From contig NZ_CP059449.1 of NCBI RefSeq assembly GCF_022023855.1, positions 434,001-498,000 of the forward strand: a DNA stretch of 64,000 bases, in the 5' to 3' direction. A model generated the notes under the pieces. It saw only the letters and a program-made list of their open reading frames with translations. It did no database searches and was not told the DNA's origin. The translations under genes were made by a program, and so were the position numbers. The DNA comes from Azospirillum brasilense. Lineage in GTDB: Bacteria; Pseudomonadota; Alphaproteobacteria; Azospirillales; Azospirillaceae. Shown here one piece after another: positions 48,766-63,278 of the stretch (positions are counted from its first letter, which is position 1; each line of letters opens with the position of its first letter).

Positions 48766-48795
48766 AAGCCTTCCCGGTTGGGAAGGCTTCTTCGT
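48766..48795 (+). terminator. rho-independent terminator after the liv operon
   Basis: Perfect 10-bp arms AAGCCTTCCC and GGGAAGGCTT around a short loop, with CTTCGTT following and an A-run before, so it could work in both directions. It marks the left edge of core sequence before the accessory island. Confidence 0.85.
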
Positions 48796-48903
48796 TGTCG
48801 GTTTCAGGCTTGGATGGGAGTGAGGCAGAGGGACGGGCTCGATTTGGCACCTATATTTGGGAGCACGGGCCGGCATTATGTGGGAACGATCCGTGAAATC
48901 AGC

Positions 48904-49091
48904 CTATGTGTGAGAGGAGTTCGTTGTATCTTCCACCGAGGGCGGCTTGGCAAAGGCGCTCTTCGGATCGACCCCGGCGAGCAGTTGATCGAGCAGCTGG
49001 TCCGGGATGCTGGGCTGTTTGCGTCGTGCCATACAGGGCCTCCTTCGGTCCCTCGGTTATGGCCCGTACACGGAATTCCTCACAGTCCCTA
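48904..49091 (-). mobile_element. IS256 family transposase remnant (5' end only)
   Basis: On the minus strand, ATG 49032 opens a 42-residue reading (MARRKQPSIPDQLLDQLLAG and a little more), which is the standard N-terminus of IS256-family transposases, preceded by a GAAGGAGG ribosome site. After about 28 residues the homology stops and a stop codon appears at 48904. Just upstream, around 49071-49090, the minus strand reads GGGACTGTGAGGAATTCCGT, which looks like the family's terminal repeat. The remaining about 350 codons are missing. Confidence 0.65.
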
Positions 49092-49474
49092 TCTGGCCCG
49101 CTGCTGGGCGCCGCGGGGCGGCGACCTGCGCATCCCGGCACCCGGGTTGGCGCGCCGCCGGGCTGCTCGGGGCCTGGAACGCGGTAAGCCGGCAGAGGTT
49201 GGTGCATACCAGCGCCACCAAACACTCAAGCGACTTCATCGCGCTACTCGTATGGGCCGACAAAAATGTCTGCACGTAAATAGTATGTAACCGATTGATA
49301 TTTATCGTAATTGCGATTCGGCTCAGCGGAAAAGTTTGCGCATGTTGTGCTTGACTCCGAGTTTAGATTGTCGTATGCAAACAAGTTTTCCCATGTAAGT
49401 ATATTATACTTGTGCGAGTAAATTGCGCTCATGCGGAGAGCGTAGCTAGAAATCTCCATCGCGCTGCAGTGCAG
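49092..49474. other. gene-poor, AT-rich left part of the island
   Basis: No supported gene. The first about 160 bases are GC-rich without a good reading frame; from about 49260 the sequence becomes AT-rich (TAAATAGTATGTAACCGATTG and similar). This abrupt base-composition change separates the IS remnant from the RADAR operon and is typical of an acquired segment. Confidence 0.4.
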
Positions 49475-51790
49475 TCAGATGGTGAGGAATGTGCTTTCGT
49501 ATCCACACTCTCGTAGCTTCTCGATCAAGAGAAGCGCCTCTGGCAATGTCTTTTCTTTCTGCTTTACGATTGTATCGAGCAGGATGGCGAATTCCTGATC
49601 CAGTCTCGTGGCAAACACACCTGGGTCATCGGTATTTACGGATATACGAGCGCGTCCTTCGGTCATCTTCAGGATGTTGAAGGCAGGATGCTCCTGCATG
49701 TTTTTCACCGCGCCGGTGGTCATGTTGCTGGTTGGGTTGATTTCCAGGCAAATTCCCCGTTCATACATTTTCTCACAGACCACCTTTTGGGCATGAGCGA
49801 TCCGAGGCGCTTGTGCGTTCAGGACGGCAATGGATTTGCTGCCGGCTATACTGTCTCGCTTTCTCTGAACCTCCCGGTTCCACGTTTCGTGGGCGAAGAG
49901 GTGGACCGGGTCGTCCATGCTTCCCTGCCCCTCGGGTGTAGGACGCGGCGGCAAGTGCGTGCGTTCGTCGGCAAGGAGTTCCAGCACGCTGACCGGGATC
50001 ACCTTTCCATAGATTGCCTGGCTCAGCTTGCAGATCTCTCGATCGATGTCGGCGAGATCCGCGGGAGGTAGCGCGCCCGCAACCAGCAGCGTCTTGCGCA
50101 GCCAAACCAGATCGTCGAGCAGCACACCTTGGGGCATCTGAATGCGCGAGTGGTTTCTTGCCAGCCACATCGGCGTGTCGAGGCCCAGCGCCAGCCCATG
50201 TCCGATGCGGTCACGCTGCTCCAGCAGATGGGTAACCAGCAGGTCAATGTGTCGGAGGCCTGTGACGACGTGGAAAAAATCCTCTCCGGCATGGTAGGTC
50301 TGACCGAGGCGGGGCAACGTGAAGGAGTGGACGTGCAGGCCACGGTCCGATAGCCGGCTCCAGTGCTCCGGAACGATTCTTTCTGCGCTGTCTGGAGTCG
50401 CAAGCGGTCCGACGTCGCCGCGCAGCAGCCGCAGGAACGGAATGAAGATGTCTGGGGCGCAGCCCCGTTCGAGGTTCGCGACATCCAAGCCGACGATCGA
50501 GGACGCCAAAGCTGGGTGCTTGTGACGAAAGAGGTGGAGGATGGCAGTCTTGCGGTCCAGGTCGGCCCGCAGACTGCCAAAATGGCCAAGATTAGTAGAT
50601 CGAGCCTTGGGATTGCGGATGAAGTGGACGACGAAGCCGATGTCGTACGGCCCATCCAAACCGTTCCGTACCTGCTTCCAGTTCCGCATGTACTGGAACC
50701 ATTTGACGGCTTTATCCTTGGGAGCGATCCTCAACTCGAGGCGTCTGGTCGAGGGGCATTCCAGGGCGAGATCGGCCAGTCGGCGCATTCTCTGGCGGAG
50801 AGCCCGCGGCGCCTTGACGGCGCGTTTCTCGCTCAGGGGTTCAGCGCGGTCGAGGTATTCGCGGAAGCGCGACAATCCGGCACCGGAGCCTGGAAACTGC
50901 TGCTGCTCGGACAGGAAGATGCTCTTCGCGACGAGGTATTGATCGAAGCCCTTCTCGAAATCCTGGTTTTCGTCCCCGTGGAGACGATTGTATCCTGCGA
51001 GTAGGCGCTGCCAGGAATGCATGAGAAACCAGCGTTCCTGATACAGATGCTCGGCCGAACTGGCGGTTCGGGATGCCTTGGGAACGTCGAGGCTTTCCCG
51101 CCAGTGCCGAAGTGTGCGCCGCCGGAACGTCATGGCATCCTGGATGAGATCCCGTTCCCACAGCCGGTTCGACAGGCGCTCGCCGTTGCTCCGGATCTCC
51201 TCCAATTTGGCGTCATTGTAGCGCGGAACCGCTTCGAGTCGGACGTCCTCAGCCATGAGCCTCGCCCACAGCACCGGAACGGGATCGCTCGCCTCGAAGT
51301 GCACGTGGGTGTCGGCCAGCCCGCGGGCGCAGATCGTGCTCAAGTCGGGGTCCCAGATGCCGGGAAACACTCGCCACTTGGAAAGCGCCTGCAGGGACTT
51401 GTCAATGTTGCAGGGGGCGGGAGACTGCCCCAACAGGTTCAGCGTCACCAAGGCGTCATGGTCCAACCGCGCCATTGCCGACCGCCAGTTCGCCAGCGAC
51501 GGGCGTGCGATCCGCGGCTCGCAGGAATAGACCTTGACGTCGATGTCGCCGCTGGTCAGCACTGCGCTCCACCAGTCGGTCAACCGCCGGTGCTTGGCGA
51601 AGAAGTCCTCGACAGCAACCTCGATTACCTCCTGATGACGCTCCGGGTTGCGGTGCAGGAGATGGTTGGCGAAGTGCCTGGCCATCTCCAACGGCCCGGG
51701 AAGCTCGACGGTTCCCCACGAGAGCCGTGCGCGCCATCGGATCAACTCGATCGCGAGATCAAGCCGGCTTATCCCCAACAAGCTGCTCAT
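49475..51790 (-). CDS. rdrB: RADAR defence system adenosine deaminase RdrB
   Basis: A 771-residue protein with the metal-dependent adenosine deaminase motifs spread as in RdrB: THVHFEAS (His162, His164), TYHAGED (His500, Glu503), IGHGL (His531), EINPTSNM near residue 684, and SVNTDDPGVF (Asp721, Asp722). Long inserts separate the first and second motifs, as in RdrB and unlike the about 340-residue housekeeping enzyme. In RADAR it converts adenosine or ATP species to inosine forms during phage infection. ATG 51790 has an AGGAAAG ribosome site and overlaps the rdrA 3' end by 32 bases. All metal and catalytic residues seem present. Confidence 0.92.
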   Translation of the reverse strand: MSSLLGISRLDLAIELIRWRARLSWGTVELPGPLEMARHFANHLLHRNPERHQEVIEVAVEDFFAKHRRLTDWWSAVLTSGDIDVKVYSCEPRIARPSLANWRSAMARLDHDALVTLNLLGQSPAPCNIDKSLQALSKWRVFPGIWDPDLSTICARGLADTHVHFEASDPVPVLWARLMAEDVRLEAVPRYNDAKLEEIRSNGERLSNRLWERDLIQDAMTFRRRTLRHWRESLDVPKASRTASSAEHLYQERWFLMHSWQRLLAGYNRLHGDENQDFEKGFDQYLVAKSIFLSEQQQFPGSGAGLSRFREYLDRAEPLSEKRAVKAPRALRQRMRRLADLALECPSTRRLELRIAPKDKAVKWFQYMRNWKQVRNGLDGPYDIGFVVHFIRNPKARSTNLGHFGSLRADLDRKTAILHLFRHKHPALASSIVGLDVANLERGCAPDIFIPFLRLLRGDVGPLATPDSAERIVPEHWSRLSDRGLHVHSFTLPRLGQTYHAGEDFFHVVTGLRHIDLLVTHLLEQRDRIGHGLALGLDTPMWLARNHSRIQMPQGVLLDDLVWLRKTLLVAGALPPADLADIDREICKLSQAIYGKVIPVSVLELLADERTHLPPRPTPEGQGSMDDPVHLFAHETWNREVQRKRDSIAGSKSIAVLNAQAPRIAHAQKVVCEKMYERGICLEINPTSNMTTGAVKNMQEHPAFNILKMTEGRARISVNTDDPGVFATRLDQEFAILLDTIVKQKEKTLPEALLLIEKLRECGYESTFLTI

Positions 51791-54641
51791 GGATCTTTCC
51801 TGCCGGGACGCGGCCGATGTCGAGGAAACGGGCAATCAGATCGACTTTTTCCGTGAGCGACGCATCCGCGGCGATCGTGGTTTTCAGCCTCTCGAACTCG
51901 GCGAGTTGGTCTTTGAGCCATTCCGCCGTGTCGGTTAGGTCAGCGGCAATGGCGTCCAGGTGGAAGGTTGCGTCCGGAAAGTTCCAGGTCAGCAGGTCTT
52001 CCGGTTGCAGCATATCCTCCGGCTGGGTGGGGTAAACATCCTTGCCTTCGGGTCTGCCCCACGCGCGGACCTTGATGTTCGCCATGGTCTGAACAAGTGG
52101 CGGCTTTTCGCTGGGTGCGCGCAACTGCGTCAGCTTGTCTGCGGCCGCAATCATCAGCTTACGAACGGATGTCCACACCGAGACGGCGGTGTCGTCATCG
52201 AGCGGCCCGTCGCCGATCCAGAACAACCCGCGCGCGATTGGGACTAGGCTCCAGACGTGCAGAATGAACGTGCGGGGACTGCGATCCTGCACTGATTCTG
52301 CCAGATTAACCAGCATCTTAAGCCGGCATTGGGAGCGATTGCCGGGAGAGGGGCTCAGTGAAATGCCGATCGGCAATGTTGTTTGTGGGTAGTGAATTGC
52401 TTTGAAGTCGTTTCCTAGACGGGCCAAGTGGGCCGAGAGAACCCACATAACGACGAGGAAGTGCCTCTGCCTTTCAGCTTCCGCTGCGTTCCGTATCAGG
52501 TCCCGGGCGAACTGAGAAAAGCTTAGAGCAATATCACCGAGGGCAGCGAGATCGCGCCAAATGTCGCCAATGTCCGCGTGGCCGCGAGAAAGTTGGCTGT
52601 CAATCTTGACGCACAGCGCGTCCCAGGTGGATATCCCATCTCCTTTCACATGTGAGAAGACCCATGCATGCTGCATGAATGTCGTTGTGACGTCCCGGTA
52701 GCGGATTCCGTCTTGTAATAATTCGAAAGGTACCGTTTCGCGCGCTTTCCCTCGTGCAATGGCCTTCTCGACCGTGTTCCACCTTGAGAATGCCAAAACA
52801 TCGGTGCGGTTTATTTCCTCAAACGGCTTACTAAGATCTGGGTGGTAGATGTACTTGCTCTCCGAGGACACCTCCAGCATCAGGCTGTCGAGGTAACGGA
52901 GCTGAAACACGTAGAGGCAGGACCAGGGGAGAAATGACCGCTGGTAGTATCCAGCGATTCCGTATCGTGCTTCAGGGAGGTCGTTCCGCCTCTCCGGTGG
53001 CAGTATCCTGGCAAAATGGGCTGGGATCCAATGTGAAAGGGCTTCTACACCCCTGGCATCCAACTGGTTGCCGCCAATATGGACATCGAGCCAATAGTCA
53101 CAGACGCTTTGGGAGTACGTCCCTCCCGGCATGTATTGTTTCGTATCGTCGGCGAGCCAGCCGCTTACCATTTGTTCGGCCAGAATGGCTTCGCCGATGT
53201 GGTCAGTTTCCTTCATGGCGGCGCGCAAGTCGCGTGCCTTGTGATAACCGAGCAGAAGCGTTGGTAAGGGTTTGTGGTCAGCGCGCGGAAACAGATCGCC
53301 GGTGCGGCGGTATTGGTCGTAGAAGACTCCATCGAGGAAGCTGACCAAACCTCGAACCGAGTCCACGAATAGCGCGCTGTGCTCCGACGTGGCAAACCAC
53401 CATTCCAGGGCCAATCGTAGGCTTTCGGCAGCCCTCTCCGGCTCGGTATGAGTCTTGGCAGCCAGCGCATGGGCAACGAACTGGCTGACAAAGATTTCCG
53501 TTAGGGTTCGCTCCTTGGGAAGGGATTCGAGGTGGGAGCGGTCCGGTATCGACAAGCGGTGCCGGCGGCTCGGCGGGAGCGTTTTGTCGATTTCCGCCAG
53601 CACAACATCGGTTGTGTCACTCCACAGACTGAATAAGCGTCCCGCCCGAGCGTCGATGGGCTCGGCCTGATCGAGGACGCGGAGGGCTTTGATGAGGTCT
53701 GGGTTCTTGCTGAATCGCTGCCGGGCTATCTCACGGGATAGGCGCCCGACATCCGCGGCTATAATGGTGACGACCCGCGGGTGCGCAAGGTACTGCCGGA
53801 CATCGTTGAGAATTCTGTCTCCACCATACGGAGCCAAGTCCGTATCGTCGAATACCAGGACGAGCAACTCGCAATTGACCACTTCGAGCAGAGCGTCGAC
53901 GAAACCGTGCCACGCCTCAATGCGCTGGTAGGCGTAGATGTTGTAGGTAGCCCGGTTGCGGGCGTAGTCCTTGAAGTCCAGAGCGTCGTTGACGAGAGCC
54001 GTCTGCCCCTGGCTGTGAGCGAACGTCCAGCCGACATGGACCTCGTCCCTGAGCTCGTTCAGGGTCGCCTGCAACTCCTTTTGCCGTCGGCTGTCGCCAT
54101 GCTCCGCGTCGAGTCGGCGCAGGAGTTCATCCTCGATTTCGGCCAGAACGGCCTCCATCGGCATCTCATGCTCGAGCATGCTGCTGGGGATGATGATGGG
54201 TTGCACGAGAGCGGTGCGGCGGGTGGTCTCGATCTCAAGCGTTTCGAACCCGAGCTTCACCACTCCCGGATCCCGGTCCGTCTGATTCGGCAAGCCGCGG
54301 AGCGTCAATGCGTTGAGAATTTCCTTGATCTTCAGAAGCGTGGTCGTCTTGCCACTGCCGCGTTCACCGTCAATCACCAACACGTTGTGGGGCTGTTGAT
54401 GGCGCCCGTTGCGCCGACGCCATCGTGGGCTGATGCGGTCCCCATTCGCGTCCTTGTAGAATTTCGTTTCTTCCTTCCCAGCCTGACGGTGATGCCGGAC
54501 CGCCTGCGCCTGGACTCCCAGCACAACGCGTTCCACAGCCTGCTGCTGTTCGGGATAAAGGTCCGCAAGTTCCTGTTGCGGCAGCGCTGCCTTCGACAGC
54601 TCACTGAGCCGTTCGATCCATTTTTTGTCGGCCGAAGGCAT
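51759..54641 (-). CDS. rdrA: RADAR defence system ATPase RdrA
   Basis: A 960-residue AAA+/STAND-type ATPase. Walker A is GERGSGKT at residues 92-99, preceded by HNVLVIDGE; Walker B is LLVLVFDDTDLAP near residues 259-271; a sensor-1-like strand VVTIIAADVGRLSR follows. The remaining about 650 residues are helical and contain no known domain that I can name. This is the size and layout of RdrA, which assembles with RdrB to sense phage infection. The two genes overlap, so are co-translated. ATG 54641 follows GAGAGGGG. GC content and codon use are less biased than in the flanking core, consistent with transfer. Confidence 0.92.
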   Translation of the reverse strand: MPSADKKWIERLSELSKAALPQQELADLYPEQQQAVERVVLGVQAQAVRHHRQAGKEETKFYKDANGDRISPRWRRRNGRHQQPHNVLVIDGERGSGKTTTLLKIKEILNALTLRGLPNQTDRDPGVVKLGFETLEIETTRRTALVQPIIIPSSMLEHEMPMEAVLAEIEDELLRRLDAEHGDSRRQKELQATLNELRDEVHVGWTFAHSQGQTALVNDALDFKDYARNRATYNIYAYQRIEAWHGFVDALLEVVNCELLVLVFDDTDLAPYGGDRILNDVRQYLAHPRVVTIIAADVGRLSREIARQRFSKNPDLIKALRVLDQAEPIDARAGRLFSLWSDTTDVVLAEIDKTLPPSRRHRLSIPDRSHLESLPKERTLTEIFVSQFVAHALAAKTHTEPERAAESLRLALEWWFATSEHSALFVDSVRGLVSFLDGVFYDQYRRTGDLFPRADHKPLPTLLLGYHKARDLRAAMKETDHIGEAILAEQMVSGWLADDTKQYMPGGTYSQSVCDYWLDVHIGGNQLDARGVEALSHWIPAHFARILPPERRNDLPEARYGIAGYYQRSFLPWSCLYVFQLRYLDSLMLEVSSESKYIYHPDLSKPFEEINRTDVLAFSRWNTVEKAIARGKARETVPFELLQDGIRYRDVTTTFMQHAWVFSHVKGDGISTWDALCVKIDSQLSRGHADIGDIWRDLAALGDIALSFSQFARDLIRNAAEAERQRHFLVVMWVLSAHLARLGNDFKAIHYPQTTLPIGISLSPSPGNRSQCRLKMLVNLAESVQDRSPRTFILHVWSLVPIARGLFWIGDGPLDDDTAVSVWTSVRKLMIAAADKLTQLRAPSEKPPLVQTMANIKVRAWGRPEGKDVYPTQPEDMLQPEDLLTWNFPDATFHLDAIAADLTDTAEWLKDQLAEFERLKTTIAADASLTEKVDLIARFLDIGRVPAGKIHEQLVGDKPA

Positions 54642-54753
54642 GCGGTGCCCCTCTCGCTTTTGATGCGGCGAGAGAATACCCGCGGAACGGGTTCAATATC
54701 AACACGCCAAGTCCAAAAAGGAGTTGGGCGGTTGGGTGTCAGCCTAACTCGCG

Positions 54754-55221
54754 TCAGCGGGCAATCTGGGCCATCCAGCGGCGGCGTGGCCGGGCAGGTG
54801 ACGACCTCCGGGCGACGTCATAGACGACATCCAAGAGTATGTTGTCCTGCCGTGCCGCATCCCGGGCAATCCTGGTCTGGCCGCGGTTGGTGGGTGCGCG
54901 GCTGGGAGACACTTCGTTGAAGTCGTCTATTACGACCACTTGAAGGTTGGGGCGGCGGCGCATCAGCGAGTCTAGGACCCGCCAGCATTCCTGGCCCAGG
55001 CGGCCGTACCAGGAGTCGGTGACGATCACGTCCGGCTTGTGACGGTCAACGGCCTCCACGGCATATTCGGGGGCGCTCAGGCGTACGACGTCGACGGGCT
55101 GTCTGCGGCTATGGGACAGCTTGTCGCTCAGTGCGGCCAAACTGAAAGGGTCCTCGCTAATGACCAGAACCTTTGGATGGGTGCTGTCCACGGCGTGCTG
55201 GCTGCGAAGCTGGGGGATCAT
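54754..55221 (-). CDS. receiver-like protein upstream of RADAR
   Basis: A 155-residue protein with a CheY-like fold in residues about 15-100: beta-1 KVLVISEDP with an acidic pair, beta-3 PDVIVTDSW with a candidate phosphoacceptor Asp69, and VVVIDD as beta-4. The usual Thr/Ser and Lys of a receiver are not evident, and a basic C-terminal tail (RPRRRWMAQ) follows. It is in the same direction as rdrA, 112 bases upstream. It may be an accessory or regulator of the RADAR operon, or an unrelated orphan. I know of no RADAR subtype described with such a gene. Confidence 0.6.
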   Translation of the reverse strand: MIPQLRSQHAVDSTHPKVLVISEDPFSLAALSDKLSHSRRQPVDVVRLSAPEYAVEAVDRHKPDVIVTDSWYGRLGQECWRVLDSLMRRRPNLQVVVIDDFNEVSPSRAPTNRGQTRIARDAARQDNILLDVVYDVARRSSPARPRRRWMAQIAR

Positions 55222-55537
55222 GGCGTCCTATCCCTCTCGAGTTCCTGACAGAACAACAGAACCCGACTGTCGGTTCCTAGCCTCAGCGCATGCCATCATG
55301 GACCCAAACTCCCGAGGAAGCGAGGAAGCTAGCGATTGGCCGGCTGTAACGCAAGGCCGCTTTGCAGGGAAACCCGCAGCAATTTGAGGCATTTGGTTGC
55401 ATGTCCACGCTTCACTTGCTACGATTTATCCATTGTGCAGGGGTTTGCCCCCGATTGCAAGTGGGTAATCCACCAGACTTTGTGTCTGCCTCGCCTGAGA
55501 TGCGAGCCCTAGCCCCCATTCCTTGTGGTGTCAAATC
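55222..55537. other. divergent intergenic region in the island
   Basis: A 316-bp gap between the receiver-like gene (minus) and the 140-residue gene (plus). It must hold promoters for both. A 7-bp inverted pair CACTTGC (55413-55419) and GCAAGTG (55457-55463) is spaced 37 bases apart and could be an operator. No RNA gene is recognised. Confidence 0.4.
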
Positions 55538-55960
55538 ATGTCCGCCTTTTCAGGAAAGCAGGCCCGGGAGCTCACCGAGGTCACGGAGGAGGAGTTCAAG
55601 CACTGGCGCAAGGTGCTGTCGGGCGTGCCGGCGCTTGTAGGAAAGCGGCCCAAGCTACGATATTCCCATTTGATCCTCTTGAGTGTCGTGAAGGAACTTA
55701 CGCAGTTGGGCTTATCCATAAGTCCCATACGATCTCAAATCGAGCGGATCGCCCTGGAAATGGAAACAAAACCGCCCGCGGATCTAAAGAGCCAAGTGCT
55801 CGTGCTCAGTGGGGCCGGTGCCGCGTTGAAGACGGCGTCATCTGGGCGGGTGCAATTTGCCGTCGACGACCCCGCCACAGTGTTCCTGGCCATGGGCCCA
55901 ATCATCGCGCGTCTGGATGGCCGCATTCAGGGCGGCAGCGAACCGATGCTGCCGTTCTAA
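55538..55960 (+). CDS. hypothetical protein, possible HTH regulator
   Basis: A 140-residue protein. Residues about 10-60 (VTEEEFKHWRKVLSGVPAL then YSHLILLSVVKELTQLGLSISPI) are helical and recall the N-terminal part of a MerR-type winged helix, but no family can be assigned with confidence. The C-terminal half is short strands ending PMLPF. The ATG at 55538 is preferred over a TTG 15 bases upstream. It is divergent from the receiver-like gene, with IS remnants after it. Confidence 0.5.
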   Translation: MSAFSGKQARELTEVTEEEFKHWRKVLSGVPALVGKRPKLRYSHLILLSVVKELTQLGLSISPIRSQIERIALEMETKPPADLKSQVLVLSGAGAALKTASSGRVQFAVDDPATVFLAMGPIIARLDGRIQGGSEPMLPF

Positions 55961-56041
55961 CACTACTTTGGCAGTCTCCACGTGAGCAGGTGAGCTGATC
56001 GCTGTTGAACAGCTTAGTCCTTCCGGTCGTCCTGCAAGACC

Positions 56042-56525
56042 TCATCCACATTCCGCAACTCGATTGGTGTCCGGTGGTGACACGTCCTTGGCGGCATACA
56101 CCGTGAGCTGGGCGGCCAGCTTGGTTTTCGTGAGGTCGCACGGACTGGGCGGCCGATAGGCCGGGTTGGCCAGGTCGGGTTTGTCGGCGACGCGCTCACG
56201 GACGACGTCGTTGGGGGAGCGGCCGGTGAGGACGCGCTGTCGGCGGGCGTTGTAGGCGAGCCGGTAGCCGTTCAGCAGGCGCTCCAGGGCTTCGTGAGTG
56301 CCGATGCACATACCAGCACCTCCCGTCCGATGCGGCCGTTGAAGCGTTCGACCATGCCGTTGGTTTGCGGCGTGTAGGGCTTGGTCGTGCGGTGCTGCAC
56401 GCTCAGGGCGCGGCAGGCGGCCTCGAAGCCGTCGGCGGTGAAGCAGCTGTCGCGGTCGGTCAGGACGTAGGTGACCTGGAAGGGAAAGGCGGCGACGGCC
56501 TCTTTGAGGATTCGCCATCCGCAAG
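56042..56525 (-). mobile_element. IS481 family transposase remnant, frameshifted
   Basis: On the minus strand one frame reads VTYVLTDRDSCFTADGFEAA and TTKPYTPQTNGMVERFNGRIGRE, the second Asp and Glu regions of an IS481 DDE transposase. The rest (IGTHEALERLLNGYRLAYNA, LTGRSPNDVVRERV) is in another frame from about 56310. The N-terminal DNA-binding part and first catalytic Asp are absent. It cannot be active. Confidence 0.75.
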
Positions 56526-56835
56526 CTGATGCACGAGGCGAGTTGCCGGGACGGCCGCGACCCGGACACTCTGTCCTTTCTCGACGCCGTGCGTGTCATC
56601 CGGCGCAACATCCCGTTCGACGCCGCGCTTTCCCCCTGAAGACCAGGAGCGCCGGCATCGCTCCGTCCTCGACGAGATCATCGCCCATCCCGCCGACCAA
56701 AGCCGGGACCGGCGAGCCCCACGCGCCGTCAAACGTAAAATGAGCAACTTTCCAACCCGGTGCCGGGCAGGACCCCGGCCCATCGCCCGGAAATCCTGCC
56801 ATTATCCAGACTACATCCAGATCAAATCCACCTGA
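56505..56835 (+). mobile_element. IS4-type transposase remnant
   Basis: The plus strand reads KLMHEASCRDGRDPDTLSFL and AVRVIRRNIPFD to about 56640, then, after a frame change, RSVLDEIIAHP and AVKRKMSNFPTR. These match the C-terminal end of IS4-type transposases (HEAA-x-DPDRLSFxxAxRVxRR, then RGVKRKMSNFP). It abuts the IS481 remnant, which points to nested insertion followed by decay. Confidence 0.65.
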
Positions 56836-56980
56836 ACGGTATTGCGGCTAGGCGCCCTTTGATCCAGCAGCTATAGTCCTGAATGGCCCAACAGACTGGG
56901 TCACAACAACGTTCCGCCATCAAACAACTAAAGGCGAAAGCGACACATATCCCAAGCGCTTTCCCATTGCACCGCTCTGG

Positions 56981-57811
56981 TTATCGGCTCTGGTGTCCGC
57001 CGCGGTAGCTGCAGTGGCCGTCGCGCGCAATGACGACATAGTCAGCAAGACGGATGCCCAACGCATGTCCCCCAGCCTCAAGCGCCTTGGCCGAAGACCG
57101 ATCATCCACGGATAGGCGCGCGCTTCCCCGAACCTGCCCACGCGCGACGATCAAGGCCGCCGCATCCAGCTCGAGTGCCCGACGGAGGATCTCACGCGGG
57201 TAGATTTCGACCGTGCCGGCGGTGCCGACCTGATGTCGCTCATCTGTGATAAGGTGGTGCTGCGCGTCCAGATAGAAGGCGCGGACCTGATCGACCCGTT
57301 CCCGCGCCAGCCTCATCTGGCAATAAGTCAGGAGAGCCGGGGTCGTGGCGAGCAGCGGCTGATGCACCGTCTCCTGCCACGCCAGCCGGGCCGCCACTTC
57401 CCAGACCAGTCGCATGGAGAGAAGCCCACGCTCGTCGAGGCGCGCGATCTGCCGCAGGCGCGGTGTCGACGCGGCCATCACATCGGTCAAGCTCCCGAAA
57501 TGATGCAGCAGCCGATCAGCGAGACGGTCTGCGTCGGCCTCTTTCCCCTCCGTCGTCAAGGCCAGCAGATGAGCCAGGAGCTGGCCATCGGGAATCGCCT
57601 CGAAGCCGCGTGCCTGCAGGCCAACCCTTTGAGGCTGCTCCGCCGTCGACGGGCGACACCGGGTGCTGCTCTTCGCGGGGCCACTTCGGCCACCCCGGGC
57701 GGGATCGCCTCCCTGGACACCCGGCACCGAGTCTCGGGCGTCCGCCGGGGGCTGGGGACGATGGGTGGCTGCGCCACCCATCTCCACATCGGTTCCCTCC
57801 AGCATCGTCAC
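56981..57811 (-). CDS. RadC-like protein lacking the JAMM metal site
   Basis: A 276-codon reading with RadC features: RLADRLLHHFGSLTDVMAAS (helix-hairpin-helix region), VDQVRAFYLDAQHHLITDE, GTAGTVEIYPREILRRALEL, and a C-terminal LGIRLADYVVIARDGHCSYR. The segment that should carry the JAMM residues (VHNHPSGDP) reads VARGQVRGSA instead, so the metal ligands are gone. The first about 80 residues are low-complexity and probably not genuine. RadC-like genes are frequent passengers of mobile elements. It may be a decayed copy. It overlaps the P450 remnant by four bases. Confidence 0.55.
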   Translation of the reverse strand: MTMLEGTDVEMGGAATHRPQPPADARDSVPGVQGGDPARGGRSGPAKSSTRCRPSTAEQPQRVGLQARGFEAIPDGQLLAHLLALTTEGKEADADRLADRLLHHFGSLTDVMAASTPRLRQIARLDERGLLSMRLVWEVAARLAWQETVHQPLLATTPALLTYCQMRLARERVDQVRAFYLDAQHHLITDERHQVGTAGTVEIYPREILRRALELDAAALIVARGQVRGSARLSVDDRSSAKALEAGGHALGIRLADYVVIARDGHCSYRGGHQSR

Positions 57812-58200
57812 GCCGGCCGGGGCTGGACAATCTCAGGGATCATCCATAGTCCGTCGCGCGGCCGGATGGTAAGCGTCACCATGGCTTCCGGCAGTGAGCC
57901 CGGGATCAGCGAAAAGCGGAAACGCTGCAGCAAAGTGGCCAGGACGATCTGCATCTCCATCATGGAGAAGTGCGCCCCGAGGCAGCGGCGCGGCCCGCCG
58001 CCGAAGGGGAAGTAGGTGAATTTGGACGTGCCCCGCGGCTCACCATTGCGGAAGCGCTCGGGATCGAAGCCTTCGGGGTTGGGCCAGTGGGCCGCGCTGC
58101 GATGCACGACGTACGGCGGCATCATCACCACCGTGCCCGCGCGGATCGGAATGCCCTGCACGACGTCGTCGGCCACCGCCTGGCGGGAAATGGTCCAGAC
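57808..58200 (-). pseudogene. cytochrome P450, C-terminal fragment
   Basis: The minus-strand frame from about 58200 reads VWTISRQAVADDVVQGI, GTVVMMPPYVVHRS, PEGFDPERF and the heme-binding loop FGGGPRRCLGAHFSMMEMQ, where the Cys ligates heme. This is the last about 130 of roughly 450 residues. The gene is cut upstream exactly where IS66-like sequence begins. Without the I-helix and N-terminal domain it cannot be a working P450. Confidence 0.85.
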
Positions 58201-58202
58201 GG

Positions 58203-58331
58203 CAGGACGACGTGCTGGCGCGCATCAACGACATGCCCCAAACCCGCCTGCGCGAACTCCTGCCCCGGGAATGGAAGGCAATCCGCGAGCAGACATAAGC
58301 TGCCTGACTGCGGCACTCAGCGGATGCTTAC
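58203..58331 (+). mobile_element. IS66 family remnant (transposase end and right terminus)
   Basis: The plus strand reads DDVLARINDMPQTRLRELLP to a stop at 58298, matching the C-terminal end of the IS66 transposase (DVLARI-x-x-x-x-RL-x-ELLP). The sequence GCTTAC at 58326-58331 fits the GTAAGC terminal repeat of IS66 in reverse. The insertion point coincides with the break in the P450 gene. Confidence 0.6.
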
Positions 58332-58542
58332 CGATTTACCGTATTTTCCGGTACCCTATCGCTTGGTTGATTGGAATAGAGGTAGTACCAAATTGGGCTG
58401 ACCCACACGCTATCAGCGCCTTACGCGACAAGTAACCCAAGCTTTTGGGGCCTTATGTAGCAACCGCCACCCGCTAAACCTCCCGTCCTGACGCGCCCGC
58501 CCGTACCCTTCCGCCGGTTGACTGGGCAGAAAGGGTACCGAA

Positions 58543-58764
58543 ATGGCCGAACCACACGTCGTAAGCGCCTTGCGCGACAAGCGGGCCGAGATTTCCGGGG
58601 TGATCGAGGACATGGAGCGGCGGGGTGCATGTGGACGCCGTGCTGCGGCTCTACATGCCGGACCTGGAGCCGGAGAGCATCGCGCCGAAGGCTGAGCTGA
58701 TGTGGTGGAAGGGCCATCCACCACATCAGCTCAGCCAGCTGGTAAATGACAGCACGTTCCCTTG
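58543..58764 (+). pseudogene. broken small hypothetical gene
   Basis: ATG 58543 opens MAEPHVVSALRDKRAEISG and VIEDMERR. The reading then changes frame to VHVDAVLRLYMPDLEPESIAPK, as if a short internal piece were lost. The two parts together look like the start of one helical protein of unknown function. A second shorter copy of the start (DPHAISALRDK then a stop) lies at about 58399-58434. The 3' end runs into a 20-bp-arm hairpin. The remaining sequence between 58332 and 58871 has no other supported gene. Confidence 0.5.
58690..58736. repeat. long perfect hairpin (20-bp arms)
   Basis: Bases 58690-58709 are the exact reverse complement of 58717-58736, with a 7-base loop. There is no T-tail. 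It lies at the end of the broken gene and just before the TnsB-subtilase chimera, so could be a fold-back scar, a bidirectional terminator or part of a mobile-element end. Confidence 0.75.
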
Positions 58765-58871
58765 AACGCAAATCGCCTGATGGTGCATCGACTGACACAC
58801 CCGAATCGAGAGCGTCTGGCTCCTCTCCGATTTTCAATACAGGAAGCTATAAGCGCGCGTCTCATTGCAAC

Positions 58872-60800
58872 TCATGTGCGGACATCAACCTTAATCGGCA
58901 TGCCGGCCAGTGCAACCAGCGCTTTGTTCCGGGCCTTAGCTAGACTGGCCATATGGATTTGAGCTGCCTGATAAATATCCTGACGCGCCTCGGGAGCAAC
59001 AATGCTGATAATCAGAGAGTAACGGACAGGAATGCCGGTATATTCTCCGTTAGGATAATCCGCCCACCAACCCGACTTTGGGTAGATCTTTATTCCTCCC
59101 TGGCGTGCTAGATCTTCTGCACGCCCCCGCCAACGGTCATGATGAATAGTGCCCCTTTCCCGAAGATGAGACTTGAGATCCCAGCCATCCTCGGTCCGCC
59201 CAGGCGGCTTGCTCTTACGGAGATCGGCAAGCACCTTGTTCTTACGTCTCACTACGTCAATGTCGTCGTCATCTGGCCCTTTGAGGTCAAACGCTAAGCG
59301 GTGACTGCAATATCGACTCGGGTCTCCTGTTGAGGCCGCTCTTACGTCTGGCTCAACAAAATAAGATAGTGTTACTCGAAGTTCTACTTGGGTTCCCCCC
59401 ATACTCTTCAAAGCATCAACCGGCCATGGAAGCTCATAGTATTTAAGCTCGCTGATCGAAACTCGGCCATCCTGGAATTTAAATGGCACCAATTCATCTT
59501 GGACAACCATGGTTAGCCTATCTGTCGCACTTTTATGTGCAACATCCTCACTAGGCACACCCCAACCATACATTCCCAGCAGCCACTCCGCTCGTGCGGA
59601 AGCTGCCAAATGGGCAACACGCGCCCGCATGGCTGACGTCCAATTGGCTGAATGAACAATCAATCCACGGACAGTTTCTGGCCAATAGACTGGATACCGC
59701 GCCATAATACGGCCGGCTATGCCTGATATAGCTGCTGTCGCAGCACTCGTTTCACCCAGTGTCGCAAAGCGAAATTTACTATCATTGTTTGTTGTAAGAA
59801 CTAAAAGCTCGGCAAGTTGCTCCGTTGCATCGTGCCCGTCGGGTGAAATGTCGGAGTGGATCATGCGCGGCTTGCCCCACACCGGCCACTCGCCCTTGAT
59901 GCCGAGTCGTTCCAACTCCGCCGCCTTGTCCAGCATGCCGTGGCAGAGGCACAGCCCCACCGCGAAGGCGCTGGGATGGTCCAGCGACAGGTGATAGCCG
60001 ACCACCATGCGGCTGAAGACGTCGATGGCCAGCGTCAGCCAGGGGCGGCCGATCGGCAGGCGCATCTCCTCGTCCAGCACAATGATGTCCAGCAACGTGT
60101 GGTCGATCTGCACGACGGCGAGCGGCGAGTCGGCGCCGGGGAACTCGCCCTTGACCCGCCCGAACTTGTCGTGTGCCGCCTTGCGGCCCTCCCGCTTCAG
60201 CACCTTCTCCCGGGGATTGATGGCCCGCAGGCGCTTGCGGATCGTGCTGCCGGCCGGCTTGGCCAGCTTGGCGGCCCGGCACCGGCGGTGCACCTCCAGG
60301 ATCACCTCCTCGCCGGTGACCTTCTGCTTGGACAGGTAGAGGTCCTTGATGACGCTGTCGATCACGGACTCGACGGCGGTATCGAGCCGCTTGGGCATGG
60401 ACCGGCCCTTGCGCCGCGGGGCGAGGTCGGACATCAACCGCCGGCCTTCGTAGGTCTTGATCCAGCGGTAGAGGGTCGAGAGGCCGACACCGTGCTGCTC
60501 AGCCACCCGTTTGACGTCCTCCTGGCTGCGGCGCTCGCATCGGACCAGCGGCTTGATGATCGCGAAACGGCGCTTAGCCTCAGCCAGGTCGTCCTCGGGA
60601 AGGCTGTCCAAGGCCCGCGTCGGTTCCGGCTTCGCGTCGCCGTCCGGATGGGACAGCTTGGAGACGGGCACCACCTGCGTTTCCTTCGTCTCGGCGTCCT
60701 CGATCAGAACCGACGAGGCGGTGACCGCTTCCAGGATGGTGCAGGACCGCCCCCGCAGCTTGACCGCCGCCCCAGAGCTGAAGCTGAACCGCGCCGTCAT
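58872..60800 (-). CDS. chimeric TnsB/TniA transposase fused to subtilisin-family (S8) C-terminus
   Basis: A 642-residue open frame with two unrelated halves. Residues 1 to about 317 are a TnsB/TniA-type transposase: N-terminal helix-turn-helix regions (VGLSTLYRWIKTYEGRR), then the integrase core with first catalytic Asp in VVQIDHTLLD (Asp233) and second in RMIHSD (Asp317). Directly after Asp317 the sequence changes to a subtilase C-terminal half: ISPDGHDATEQLAEL, then the catalytic-Ser segment LGETSAATAAISG (Ser352), ARYPVYWPETVRGLIVHSA, and about 250 more residues. The third transposase acidic residue and the protease Asp/His are missing. GC content drops at the junction near 59850. Confidence 0.8.
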   Translation of the reverse strand: MTARFSFSSGAAVKLRGRSCTILEAVTASSVLIEDAETKETQVVPVSKLSHPDGDAKPEPTRALDSLPEDDLAEAKRRFAIIKPLVRCERRSQEDVKRVAEQHGVGLSTLYRWIKTYEGRRLMSDLAPRRKGRSMPKRLDTAVESVIDSVIKDLYLSKQKVTGEEVILEVHRRCRAAKLAKPAGSTIRKRLRAINPREKVLKREGRKAAHDKFGRVKGEFPGADSPLAVVQIDHTLLDIIVLDEEMRLPIGRPWLTLAIDVFSRMVVGYHLSLDHPSAFAVGLCLCHGMLDKAAELERLGIKGEWPVWGKPRMIHSDISPDGHDATEQLAELLVLTTNNDSKFRFATLGETSAATAAISGIAGRIMARYPVYWPETVRGLIVHSANWTSAMRARVAHLAASARAEWLLGMYGWGVPSEDVAHKSATDRLTMVVQDELVPFKFQDGRVSISELKYYELPWPVDALKSMGGTQVELRVTLSYFVEPDVRAASTGDPSRYCSHRLAFDLKGPDDDDIDVVRRKNKVLADLRKSKPPGRTEDGWDLKSHLRERGTIHHDRWRGRAEDLARQGGIKIYPKSGWWADYPNGEYTGIPVRYSLIISIVAPEARQDIYQAAQIHMASLAKARNKALVALAGMPIKVDVRT

Positions 60801-61450
60801 GCGTCTCCTCCCTGGGGATGCCGGAGCATGGTTCGCATGGTGATCGGCCGGTCGAGGTCGACCACGAGTTCAAAGTGCGCGATCAGGGTCCACAGGCTGG
60901 GCAGCACCCGCGCGCGATCTGCCGCGTTACCGGCGACGCAGTCGGCCAGTTCCTGCACGGTGATCGGCGCCTCCGCTGCCACCTTGAGCAGCCTGTCGCG
61001 GAACGCCGGGTCCGCCGGACGGTCGCGAAAGGGCAGCAGAAACGTGGCGTTCTCCAGCCGTGGAGTGCGGATCTCCTTTTCAGTCGCCAGCGTGAAGACC
61101 CATCCACGCTCCGCGGCGAATCGGCGGGCTGCGGCGAAGCGCTCTTCCAAGGTGCCCGCCAGCAGGTGCGGATCGGTGGAGTATTTCACCTCCACGAGCA
61201 GCGGCGGTCGACCGGCGCCACGGTAGGTGACCAGGAAATCCGGGACATAGCGGCGCTTCGTTCCCCGGCCGATGCGGTATTCGATGCGCACCGGCTGCTC
61301 TTCGACACCGACGACGTCGCGATCAAATCGCTGCAGCAGGGCGAAGTCCCGCTCCAACGTAGATTCGACCGCGACCGATGCCCGGCCGGATCCCATTGGA
61401 ACCCGACCTGAGACACTGCGGTAACAGAGACCGATCTTGCGGACCGGCAT
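60797..61450 (-). CDS. tnsA: Tn7-like transposon endonuclease TnsA
   Basis: A 217-residue protein with the type II restriction-enzyme-like core of TnsA: ESTLERDFALLQRFD near residue 29, RRYVPDFLV with Asp71, and LLVEVKY with Glu87 and Lys89 as the remaining active-site residues. A C-terminal winged-helix part (about 135-215) follows, which in Tn7 contacts TnsC. TnsA makes the 5' strand cuts so that the element moves by cut-and-paste. Its stop overlaps the tnsB start by four bases, the usual tnsAB coupling. All catalytic residues seem intact although the partner is truncated. Confidence 0.9.
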   Translation of the reverse strand: MPVRKIGLCYRSVSGRVPMGSGRASVAVESTLERDFALLQRFDRDVVGVEEQPVRIEYRIGRGTKRRYVPDFLVTYRGAGRPPLLVEVKYSTDPHLLAGTLEERFAAARRFAAERGWVFTLATEKEIRTPRLENATFLLPFRDRPADPAFRDRLLKVAAEAPITVQELADCVAGNAADRARVLPSLWTLIAHFELVVDLDRPITMRTMLRHPQGGDA

Positions 61451-61507
61451 GCGCCACCTCCCGGATTCAACCCTAGAGGACTCGCAACGACACTTTCTCT
61501 CGCTGCA

Positions 61508-62803
61508 TCAGCATACACGCATAGCTGGCATATTCAATTCCTTGCGCACCAGCCGGTCCAGCCAGACTGCGACACCTTCTCCCGAGCGGTGCGCGGCCAG
61601 ACGCGCCGCCTCCTTCACCTCGGCCGAAACGCCGTCCAGCTTCCAATAGCGCCCCTTTCCCCACGGCGCGGTTTCCGCCGCGGGTTCGGCCATGACGTTC
61701 AAGGGTTTCCGCCTGGTGCCGGCAAGATCGACCAGGTTGCGATAGGTCGGCTTCACGCCGCGCCGTTCGAGGACGGCTTTGGCCGACGAGAGTTCTTGTC
61801 GGGAGGCCGGAGCAAGCGCTTCCTTGAGGTGCCAGTCAACGGCATGGACGAAGGCGAACGGCAGAGCCTCCGCAAAATTCGTCCGGATATGGTTGCGCGT
61901 CATGCCGACACCGCGTGCGGCCTCGACGAAACGGTGCGGCCAGTCGCCCATCAGGTGATGCGCCATCGCGACGATCACGCACCGGGCCCGCGGCGTCAGC
62001 AAGGCACCGTCGCGAGCACGCGGCAGCGTCTCTGGCGGCACCGCCAAGCGCGGCTCACGGGCTCCGACCCAGGCTCGGAGAGCGTAGGCGTGTTGACCAC
62101 CGGCGATCAGGCGCGCGACCAACGCGAGGATGCGCAATATTGTAAAGGAGTAGACCGGCCCATAGTCACCCAGCTGCCGCCAGCCCTGGGCAAGAGTCTC
62201 CAGCAGGTCCTCCCGCTCCGGAGTGGGATCGAGAGGCGGCGGGTCACTGGCGAAGTGCCGGACGTCGGCGCCGCAGGACCAGCAGCAGACCCCGTCGTGC
62301 CGGTCCTGCCGGAGAACGCTGAACGGTTCGTTGCACGCGGGACAGCGGTCGAGCAGCAGGCGGTTGTGCGTCGGGCAGACCGTGAGGAAGGCGAGGCGCC
62401 ATTCGAGGCGCAGAAACGGCACGGCGTCCTCGGCGAGGCACAGCGGGCAAACCTGTTGGCCGAAGCATCGCTTCGCCTTTTCCCGCCCGGCCGGCGGGAG
62501 CCAGTCCAACCTACCGAGACCGTCGTCCCGCTCGAACGCTATCCCGGCCCACCGGCGGAAGGTGGATTGCTCCAGCGCCGCCACCGAGGCCCCGGTCTTG
62601 TCGGCCATCATGCTCAGCAGGTGGAAGTCGGCGTAACAGTCCAGGTCGCGCGGATTGCGGTCGCCGCCGGGTTGGAGAATTCGGTACAGGTCCGCCGGCC
62701 GGAGCCCATTGCCAGCCGCAACACGGGCGAACCAGGACGAGAAGGACTCACCTTGCAGGAGTGCGGGGCGTCCCGGCCAGAGGTCTTTGGCGATCGGCGG
62801 CAT
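61508..62803 (-). CDS. tniQ: TniQ/TnsD family target-selection protein
   Basis: A 431-residue protein with an N-terminal TniQ domain: LLQGESFSSWFARVA-AGNGL near residue 15, and a zinc-binding set with CPLC (Cys119, Cys122), CPTHNRLLLDRCPAC (Cys143, His146, Cys154, Cys157) and CCWSCGA. The C-terminal part contains helix-turn-helix-like helices (RKPLNVMAE, VAVWLDRLVRKELN) that could read a target. It lies 57 bases before tnsA in the same direction and about 385 bases from tRNA-Ser(CGA), a plausible attachment target. A tnsC gene is missing. Confidence 0.88.
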   Translation of the reverse strand: MPPIAKDLWPGRPALLQGESFSSWFARVAAGNGLRPADLYRILQPGGDRNPRDLDCYADFHLLSMMADKTGASVAALEQSTFRRWAGIAFERDDGLGRLDWLPPAGREKAKRCFGQQVCPLCLAEDAVPFLRLEWRLAFLTVCPTHNRLLLDRCPACNEPFSVLRQDRHDGVCCWSCGADVRHFASDPPPLDPTPEREDLLETLAQGWRQLGDYGPVYSFTILRILALVARLIAGGQHAYALRAWVGAREPRLAVPPETLPRARDGALLTPRARCVIVAMAHHLMGDWPHRFVEAARGVGMTRNHIRTNFAEALPFAFVHAVDWHLKEALAPASRQELSSAKAVLERRGVKPTYRNLVDLAGTRRKPLNVMAEPAAETAPWGKGRYWKLDGVSAEVKEAARLAAHRSGEGVAVWLDRLVRKELNMPAMRVC

Positions 62804-63188
62804 CCGAAACCTCCCGAACCGTTGAGCCTTATGGCCTCATGATCGGGAACGGCGGCTCGCGTGTCTTGGAGGCGTCCGGGCAATCGCCACATGCCTCCCG
62901 CCGCACACCGCCGTATGATTAGGTCTCTAAGGACTCCACTCTGACGGCGATCCCTTTAGGCGAGAGGGATCCGAAAACCGCATGCGCGGGCGCACGCCGG
63001 CCTTTGGAGGACGCGCAATGCTGTCTGAGCGCGCAGCAGGCGCGTCAACCCGTTGGAACTGCTTGTGTTTTGGGGAGATCGACGGTTCGGAACCGCCTCG
63101 CTTATGCGTGATGCATTCTCACGTATAAGCGGCAAGTGTCACTTAAAGGGGAAAGCGACATTCGTTTGAGCGTTCGCTCGAATGAGAG
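62804..63188. other. region between tniQ and tRNA-Ser, candidate transposon end
   Basis: About 385 bp without a supported gene. GCTTATGCGTGA (63100-63111) and TCACGTATAAGC (63119-63130) form a near-perfect inverted pair. Read from the tRNA side on the minus strand, a TGTCGCTTTCCCC sequence begins at about 63163, similar to the TGT-starting ends of Tn7/Tn5053-type elements. Just before it, a hairpin with CATTCGAGCG and CGCTC-x-CGAATG arms may be the tRNA terminator. The element end is therefore placed only tentatively. Confidence 0.4.
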
Positions 63189-63278
63189 TGGCGGATGGGG
63201 GGAGATTCGAACTCCCGATACCCTCGCGGGTATGCCGCATTTCGAGTGCGGTGCATTCAACCGCTCTGCCACCCATCC
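63189..63278 (-). tRNA. tRNA-Ser (CGA)
   Basis: On the minus strand the gene begins GGATGGGTGGCAGAGCGGTT and ends GTTCGAATC...CCCATCC-G-CCA. The 7-bp acceptor stem pairs. The anticodon loop CTCGAAA gives anticodon CGA. The long variable arm (between ATGCGG and the T arm, with ACCCGCGAGGGT) is typical of serine tRNAs. The CCA end is encoded. It marks the right boundary of the accessory island. Confidence 0.95.

Follow-up and report, generated by a model that had tools for sequence, protein, structure and literature searches.

RADAR is a known phage defence system built from an AAA+ ATPase, RdrA, and a large adenosine deaminase, RdrB. In the assembled complex, heptamers of RdrA are docked onto a dodecamer of RdrB, and (d)ATP is converted to (d)ITP during infection (PMC9994260). 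RADAR systems generally have little sequence identity to one another, 22-28% in the conserved parts, and the authors of the cryo-EM study regard the trigger of the system as an open question (PMC9994260). Published subtypes comprise rdrAB, the Csx27-associated rdrABC, and the SLATT-associated rdrABCD (PMC7699616). Insertion of Tn7-like transposons downstream of tRNA genes, with defence genes as cargo, has also been described (PMC8649781); the main text of that study makes no mention of RADAR.

The locus described here lies in a window of 64,000 nucleotides from Azospirillum brasilense (contig NZ_CP059449.1, positions 434,001 to 498,000), and all coordinates below are those of this window. The locus is very probably an intact RADAR operon of a rare divergent clade, carried as cargo of a Tn7-like element at a tRNA-Ser site; its defensive role, activity, and assembly are what we infer. 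RADAR itself is already known, and what is new here is the clade, its insert, and the receiver-like neighbour; the carrier is precisely mapped.

The rdrA-rdrB operon

The two genes are adjacent and co-directional on the minus strand. The ATPase gene rdrA occupies 51759-54641 and the deaminase gene rdrB 49475-51790, with an overlap of 32 bases at 51759-51790. A preliminary description of this DNA had given the proteins as 960 and 771 residues long, the overlap as 32 bases, and both genes as intact, all of which proves accurate: the open reading frames encode exactly 960 and 771 amino acids, remain open throughout, and keep every catalytic residue. A chance pair of open reading frames was dismissed, because the two frames are large, co-directional, and homologous over their full length to a solved complex. 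A single RdrB-like gene is present in the genome (G000; 7.39 Mb, 8 contigs). Among 79 relatives, about 73 have an rdrA-like gene immediately upstream of rdrB, and gene order and overlap-type coupling are the same as in E. coli RADAR (P0304799.3; 8FNV/8FNT/8FNW, 8HR7).

As single sequences, both window proteins match known families weakly. RdrA matches PADLOC RdrA at 8e-7 and the PDB by phmmer at 4.5e-4, and RdrB matches PADLOC RdrB at 2e-22 and the PDB by phmmer at 3.5e-19. Profiles built from 68-72 homologues reach E. coli RdrA at E 1.7e-90, covering its residues 14-920, S. suis RdrA at E 5.5e-20, and E. coli RdrB at E 4.5e-148, and each of these matches spans the greater part of the protein. 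The predicted RdrB structure (pLDDT 91.7, pTM 0.93) matches E. coli RdrB (8fnv/8hr7) over its full length, with Z 34 over approximately 655 residues and 18-21% identity in the structural alignment. For the RdrA model, all RdrA structures lead with Z 20-24, and the next fold follows at Z 11. The S. suis SS993 system (8FNU) resembles the window in its RdrA fold (Z 20), whereas its sequence is different and no receiver is reported there. The preliminary description had identified the pair as RADAR and had proposed a profile search and a structural comparison as checks. Both searches return the known RADAR proteins, the deaminase active site is present, and the identification of the operon as RADAR is supported by profile, fold, and catalytic residues alike.

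The NCBIfam equivalog cut-offs are missed by both proteins (RdrA, 50 bits against 600; RdrB, 117.5 against 800). These cut-offs are not a membership test, since one Pantoea RdrB, although it aligns with the functional E. coli RdrB along the entire length (1675 bits), scores only 114.6 bits on the NCBI RdrB model.

RdrA is an AAA+ ATPase with a predicted four-helix crown insertion like that of its E. coli counterpart. In RADAR, RdrA carries a helical crown insertion that follows the second strand, and a C-terminal lobe made of helices. The Walker A motif had been placed at residues 92-99, where GERGSGKT is indeed found, and the Walker B motif near 259-271, where D265 and D266 lie. The window residues G97, K98, T99, D265, D266, sensor 1 D297, and sensor 2 R430 correspond to G81, K82, T83, D221, D222, D253, and R377 of E. 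coli RdrA, and G97, K98, D265, D266, and R430 are invariant in 68 aligned RdrAs. The crown helices (161-254) are predicted with pLDDT above 90, and the C-terminal lobe is helical in the model with low confidence (pLDDT below 60). The model is good in the AAA+ part only, and RdrA aligns poorly outside the ATPase domain.

A divergent RADAR clade

Scanning 85,000 species genomes yielded 79 loci, and the RdrB tree has 79 rows. In this tree the window RdrB falls in a seven-member proteobacterial clade (SH-aLRT 100) on a long stem. The other members are an uncultured Rhodospira (48% identity), Thalassospira lucentensis, and MAGs assigned to Magnetococcales, Rhodospirillaceae, Thiotrichales, and Sulfuricella. 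The other Azospirillaceae RADARs whose neighbourhoods were examined are much more distant from the window. About 1,050 genome scans with a clade profile, covering the order, class, phylum, and two other orders and including many genomes of the earlier search, revealed no additional member; one locus recovered (L188) was the Rhodospira locus (L058) again. The preliminary description was correct as to the identity of the pair and overlooked the divergent clade, the receiver-like neighbour, and the single mapped element discussed below.

No RdrB relative was found in IMG/VR by scans with two RdrB alignments, and none among annotated phages by tblastn, so that carriage by phages is unsupported at that sensitivity. 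In plasmids, tblastn returned nothing for RdrA and seven matches for RdrB, mostly unnamed RADAR pairs. Complete plasmid pairs annotated only as hypothetical occur in Rhizobium phaseoli (L041), R. leguminosarum (L042), Cetobacterium (L043), Pantoea (L044), and Aureibacter (L046). The Aureibacter pair is followed by a SLATT-domain gene. Downstream of the R. leguminosarum pair is an adenylosuccinate-synthetase-like gene (L042:10115-11716), a purine-metabolism neighbour of an ATP deaminase, and a metallophosphoesterase gene lies further on.

The receiver-like gene upstream of rdrA

A gene for a protein of 155 amino acids lies at 54754-55221 on the minus strand, 112 bp upstream of rdrA and co-directional with it, and is a candidate third component of the system. 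Its product keeps the acid pair (E23/D24) and the phospho-Asp (D69) of receiver domains; the usual switch Thr and Lys are missing. It matches the Pfam receiver at E 0.003, under the cut-off. A profile of three sequences reaches CheY, NtrC, and Spo0F structures with a best E of 3e-4, and hhalign relates the window protein to the clade receivers with 85.5% at E 5.7e-6. From this profile evidence the product is best described as receiver-like. Receivers were detected by Pfam, because phmmer with receiver queries was too insensitive and missed the clear receiver of Sulfuricella (L062).

Each of the five clade members for which upstream sequence is available has a receiver next to its RADAR genes, and their genomic contexts are unrelated; the contigs of the other two begin at rdrA or rdrB. 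In Thalassospira, the receiver lies 130 bp upstream, and the receiver gene, rdrA, and rdrB form an isolated trio with leuS on one side and an unrelated gene on the other. The Rhodospira homologue (L058; 37% identity to the window protein) lies beside rdrA on the opposite strand, in divergent orientation. The Sulfuricella (L062) and Rhodospirillaceae MAGs have the same longer order, histidine kinase-receiver-X-rdrA-rdrB. Their receivers are clearer (Pfam 1.4e-15 and 6e-5, respectively), their kinases are multi-pass membrane proteins (HATPase_c 1e-12 and 9e-12), and gene X encodes roughly 200 amino acids. In Sulfuricella, an endonuclease/exonuclease/phosphatase-family gene (L062:10244-11254) directly follows rdrB.

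A serious contender, though one we place short of even, is that the operon is an ordinary two-gene RADAR and that the receiver-like gene is an unrelated neighbour without a role. The window receiver is degenerate and separated from rdrA by its 112-bp gap, the Rhodospira copy is inverted, and validated RADAR systems function as two genes (PMC9994260). Against this reading stand the conserved kinase-receiver-X-rdrA-rdrB order of two distant genera and the distribution of the receiver itself. Beside its presence in every informative clade member, the receiver family has at most two matches among 120 upstream ORFs of 65 non-clade RADAR loci, a bound that follows from its absence among the best 25 matches listed. 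The contrast has p of about 2e-6 even if the two matches lie in different loci, a value that is uncorrected for relatedness and has n=5.

We hold as a hypothesis that the receiver-like protein regulates RdrA and RdrB as their partner, and propose that it derives from a complete histidine kinase-receiver module that two relatives still possess. Ancestrally, the module may have worked as a kinase-to-receiver switch, of which the window may carry a kinase-less pseudo-receiver. A fuller and distinctly more tentative scenario is a kind of RADAR fed by a two-component system, in which a membrane histidine kinase would sense infection damage and phosphorylate the receiver, which would turn on RdrA and RdrB; the sub-clade of the window would have lost the kinase, its receiver would have become a pseudo-receiver adaptor, and the system would have spread as Tn7-like cargo. 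The rdrABC and rdrABCD subtypes likewise carry extra genes beside rdrAB. There the extra genes encode Csx27 or SLATT proteins, whereas here the additional gene encodes a receiver-like protein, accompanied in two relatives by a membrane histidine kinase. A search of the open-access literature found no RADAR with a two-component system.

The RdrB active site and the clade insert

All deaminase metal and catalytic residues had been reported as present in RdrB, and each can be assigned: the zinc ligands H162, H164, H500, and H531, together with E503 and D721, are identical in all 72 homologues aligned. The counterparts of the His tetrad and the catalytic Glu in E. coli RdrB are H152, H154, H498, H530, and E501, and the deaminase zinc site is the same. 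The deaminase fold carries insertions beyond those of a plain deaminase. Identification as a plain adenosine deaminase was rejected, the best such structure giving Z 24 over approximately 311 residues against Z 34 for E. coli RdrB. The CRISPR-associated deaminase Cad1, of which ATP-bound structures are known, has a deaminase domain of the same superfamily (Z ~23); unlike the window RdrB, it has a CARF domain and lacks an RdrA partner, and it was rejected as it matches the deaminase core only.

The window system differs from E. coli RADAR in an insert before HxGED, a shorter insertion 3, a triple glutamate that is not seen in the alignment, and the upstream receiver-like gene. Insertion 3 is about 17 amino acids shorter than the median of other RdrBs. 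The triple glutamate (595-597) that E. coli RdrB requires at its 3-fold interface is not seen at the aligned position in the window protein, and this position is also not conserved across the 72-row family alignment. Assembly of an RdrB shell (dodecamer) is accordingly uncertain. The insert lies between R457 and T498 in the window protein, just before the catalytic HxGED, and is 35-49 residues long in all seven clade members. In the 65 non-clade sequences the same stretch measures 6-24 residues, and an insert of 35-49 residues occurs in none.

By analogy with the described systems, RdrA would form an ATPase ring that docks on the RdrB shell; when infection is sensed, RdrB would deaminate (d)ATP to (d)ITP, and the (d)ITP would poison the nucleotide pool and stop phage growth. 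Homology, fold, and active sites point to ATP-to-ITP deamination at this locus, and by the same homology the window RdrA and RdrB would assemble and the operon would defend against phages. It is conceivable that the pair is instead a RADAR relative with another substrate, such as (d)AMP, a modified phage nucleotide, or RNA, owing to the clade insert. Such a change is unlikely. The insert sits immediately before HxGED in every clade member and in no other sequence, and the substrate does not follow from a deaminase fold by itself; E. coli RdrB, a producer of ITP and dITP (PMC9994260), nevertheless has the same active-site residues and overall fold.

The Tn7-like carrier element

The RADAR operon is contained in a Tn7-like element of 14,365 bp at 48796-63160, whose tips are TGTCGGTTTC and TGTCGCTTTC. 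The element is flanked by the 5-bp target duplication TTCGT on the left (48791-48795) and on the right (63161-63165). The attachment site is a tRNA-Ser (CGA) gene at 63189-63278 on the minus strand, and the insertion lies 23 bp beyond its 3' end. In at least six congeners (G749, G751, G756, G746, G747, and G784) the empty site is uninterrupted and TTCGT is present once; in congeners the left flank runs up to window position 48796 and the right flank continues from 63161. Both tips recur, with other cargo, in two sister elements of congeners, one at a tRNA-Gln (G775) and one at a tRNA-Ser GGA (G773; target duplication GCAAA). In G769, the tns end has a 90%-identical counterpart at the same tRNA-Ser.

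The transposition genes are on the minus strand. The target selector gene tniQ (61508-62803; Pfam TniQ, E 3e-28) and the endonuclease gene tnsA (60797-61450; TnsA_N, E 1.8e-19) are intact. At 58872-60800, an in-frame fusion joins the N-terminal part of tnsB to the C-terminal portion of an IetS-family subtilase (PADLOC IetS, E 1e-13), with the breakpoint at about 59849; the fusion marks a deletion between the transposase and a second defence system. No tnsC is found after the tnsB fusion in the element. A congener has a sister element (L153) whose TnsA/TnsB/TnsC/TniQ set is intact. The window element has the TGT...ACA tips and the 5-bp duplication, and the full TnsA-TnsB-TnsC-TniQ/TnsD set is lacking; with TnsB truncated and TnsC absent, it is therefore a defective rather than a complete element and can probably not move by itself. 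It shares TnsA, TnsB, TniQ, the TGT...ACA ends, the 5-bp duplication, insertion just downstream of a tRNA, and defence cargo with the Tn7-like transposons of PMC8649781; unlike those, it lacks tnsC and half of tnsB. RADAR thus reached this site as the cargo of a Tn7-like element, which contains a fragment of the second defence system as well.

Two more Tn7-like elements occur in the same genome (G000:C1:235737-238671 and G000:C2:274879-277813; L154 and L155). Both score identically against the window tns genes, at 46-57% protein identity. Full-length frames for TnsA, TnsB, a TnsC-like protein, and TniQ are present in the C1 copy, and the C2 copy has a tRNA-Gln next to it. These elements are possible helpers in trans for the window element. 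No tns genes were found in the roughly 8-kb flanks of other RADAR loci with TnsA, TnsB, and TniQ of the window as queries, a search that distant Tns proteins would escape.

An isolated 18-bp copy of the right tip (TGTCGCTTTCGCCTTTAG) at 56928-56945 forms a truncated second end within the element. It is identical to the tip of the G773 sister element, and it suggests a nested or tandem insertion that was later deleted. A C-terminal cytochrome P450 fragment (57808-58176, minus strand) overlaps a RadC-family gene (56981-57811, minus strand), both within the element. The IS scars noted in the preliminary description are indeed there, an IS481 scar at 56068-56510 and an IS66 scar at about 58208-58335, and they have near-DNA matches to Azospirillum and Indioceanicola plasmids, which agrees with an Azospirillum host as named in that description. 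The description had also placed the operon by a Tn7-like remnant next to a tRNA. TnsA, TniQ, and part of TnsB are confirmed, although the single tRNA-Ser lies 8.5 kb from rdrA and it is the end of the element that comes within 23 bp of it. The supposed defence island is one Tn7-like element whose ends are mapped.

The decay of this element, with its truncated tnsB, absent tnsC, IetS and P450 fragments, and IS scars, would suit a RADAR-derived pair that no longer defends and persists under relaxed selection as a decaying passenger of a broken transposon. We judge this improbable, since the reading frames of rdrA (960 codons) and rdrB (771 codons) are uninterrupted and retain every catalytic residue, whereas neighbouring cargo is truncated. 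That IS scars and genomic debris gathered near a tRNA by chance, with no single mobile element involved, is scarcely credible despite the several IS remnants and gene fragments, and is refuted at the sequence level by the exact empty sites in congeners, the 5-bp duplication, and the tips common to sister elements at other tRNA genes (tRNA-Gln and tRNA-Ser GGA).

Implications for RADAR biology

Public models miss much of RADAR diversity, to the extent that even a close homologue of the experimentally proven E. coli RdrB falls under the NCBI cut-off. The window locus documents RADAR as Tn7-like cargo with base-pair boundaries. The receiver of the clade, joined in two members by a membrane histidine kinase, is a concrete candidate for the RADAR trigger, and the receiver gene could help to reveal how RADAR senses infection.
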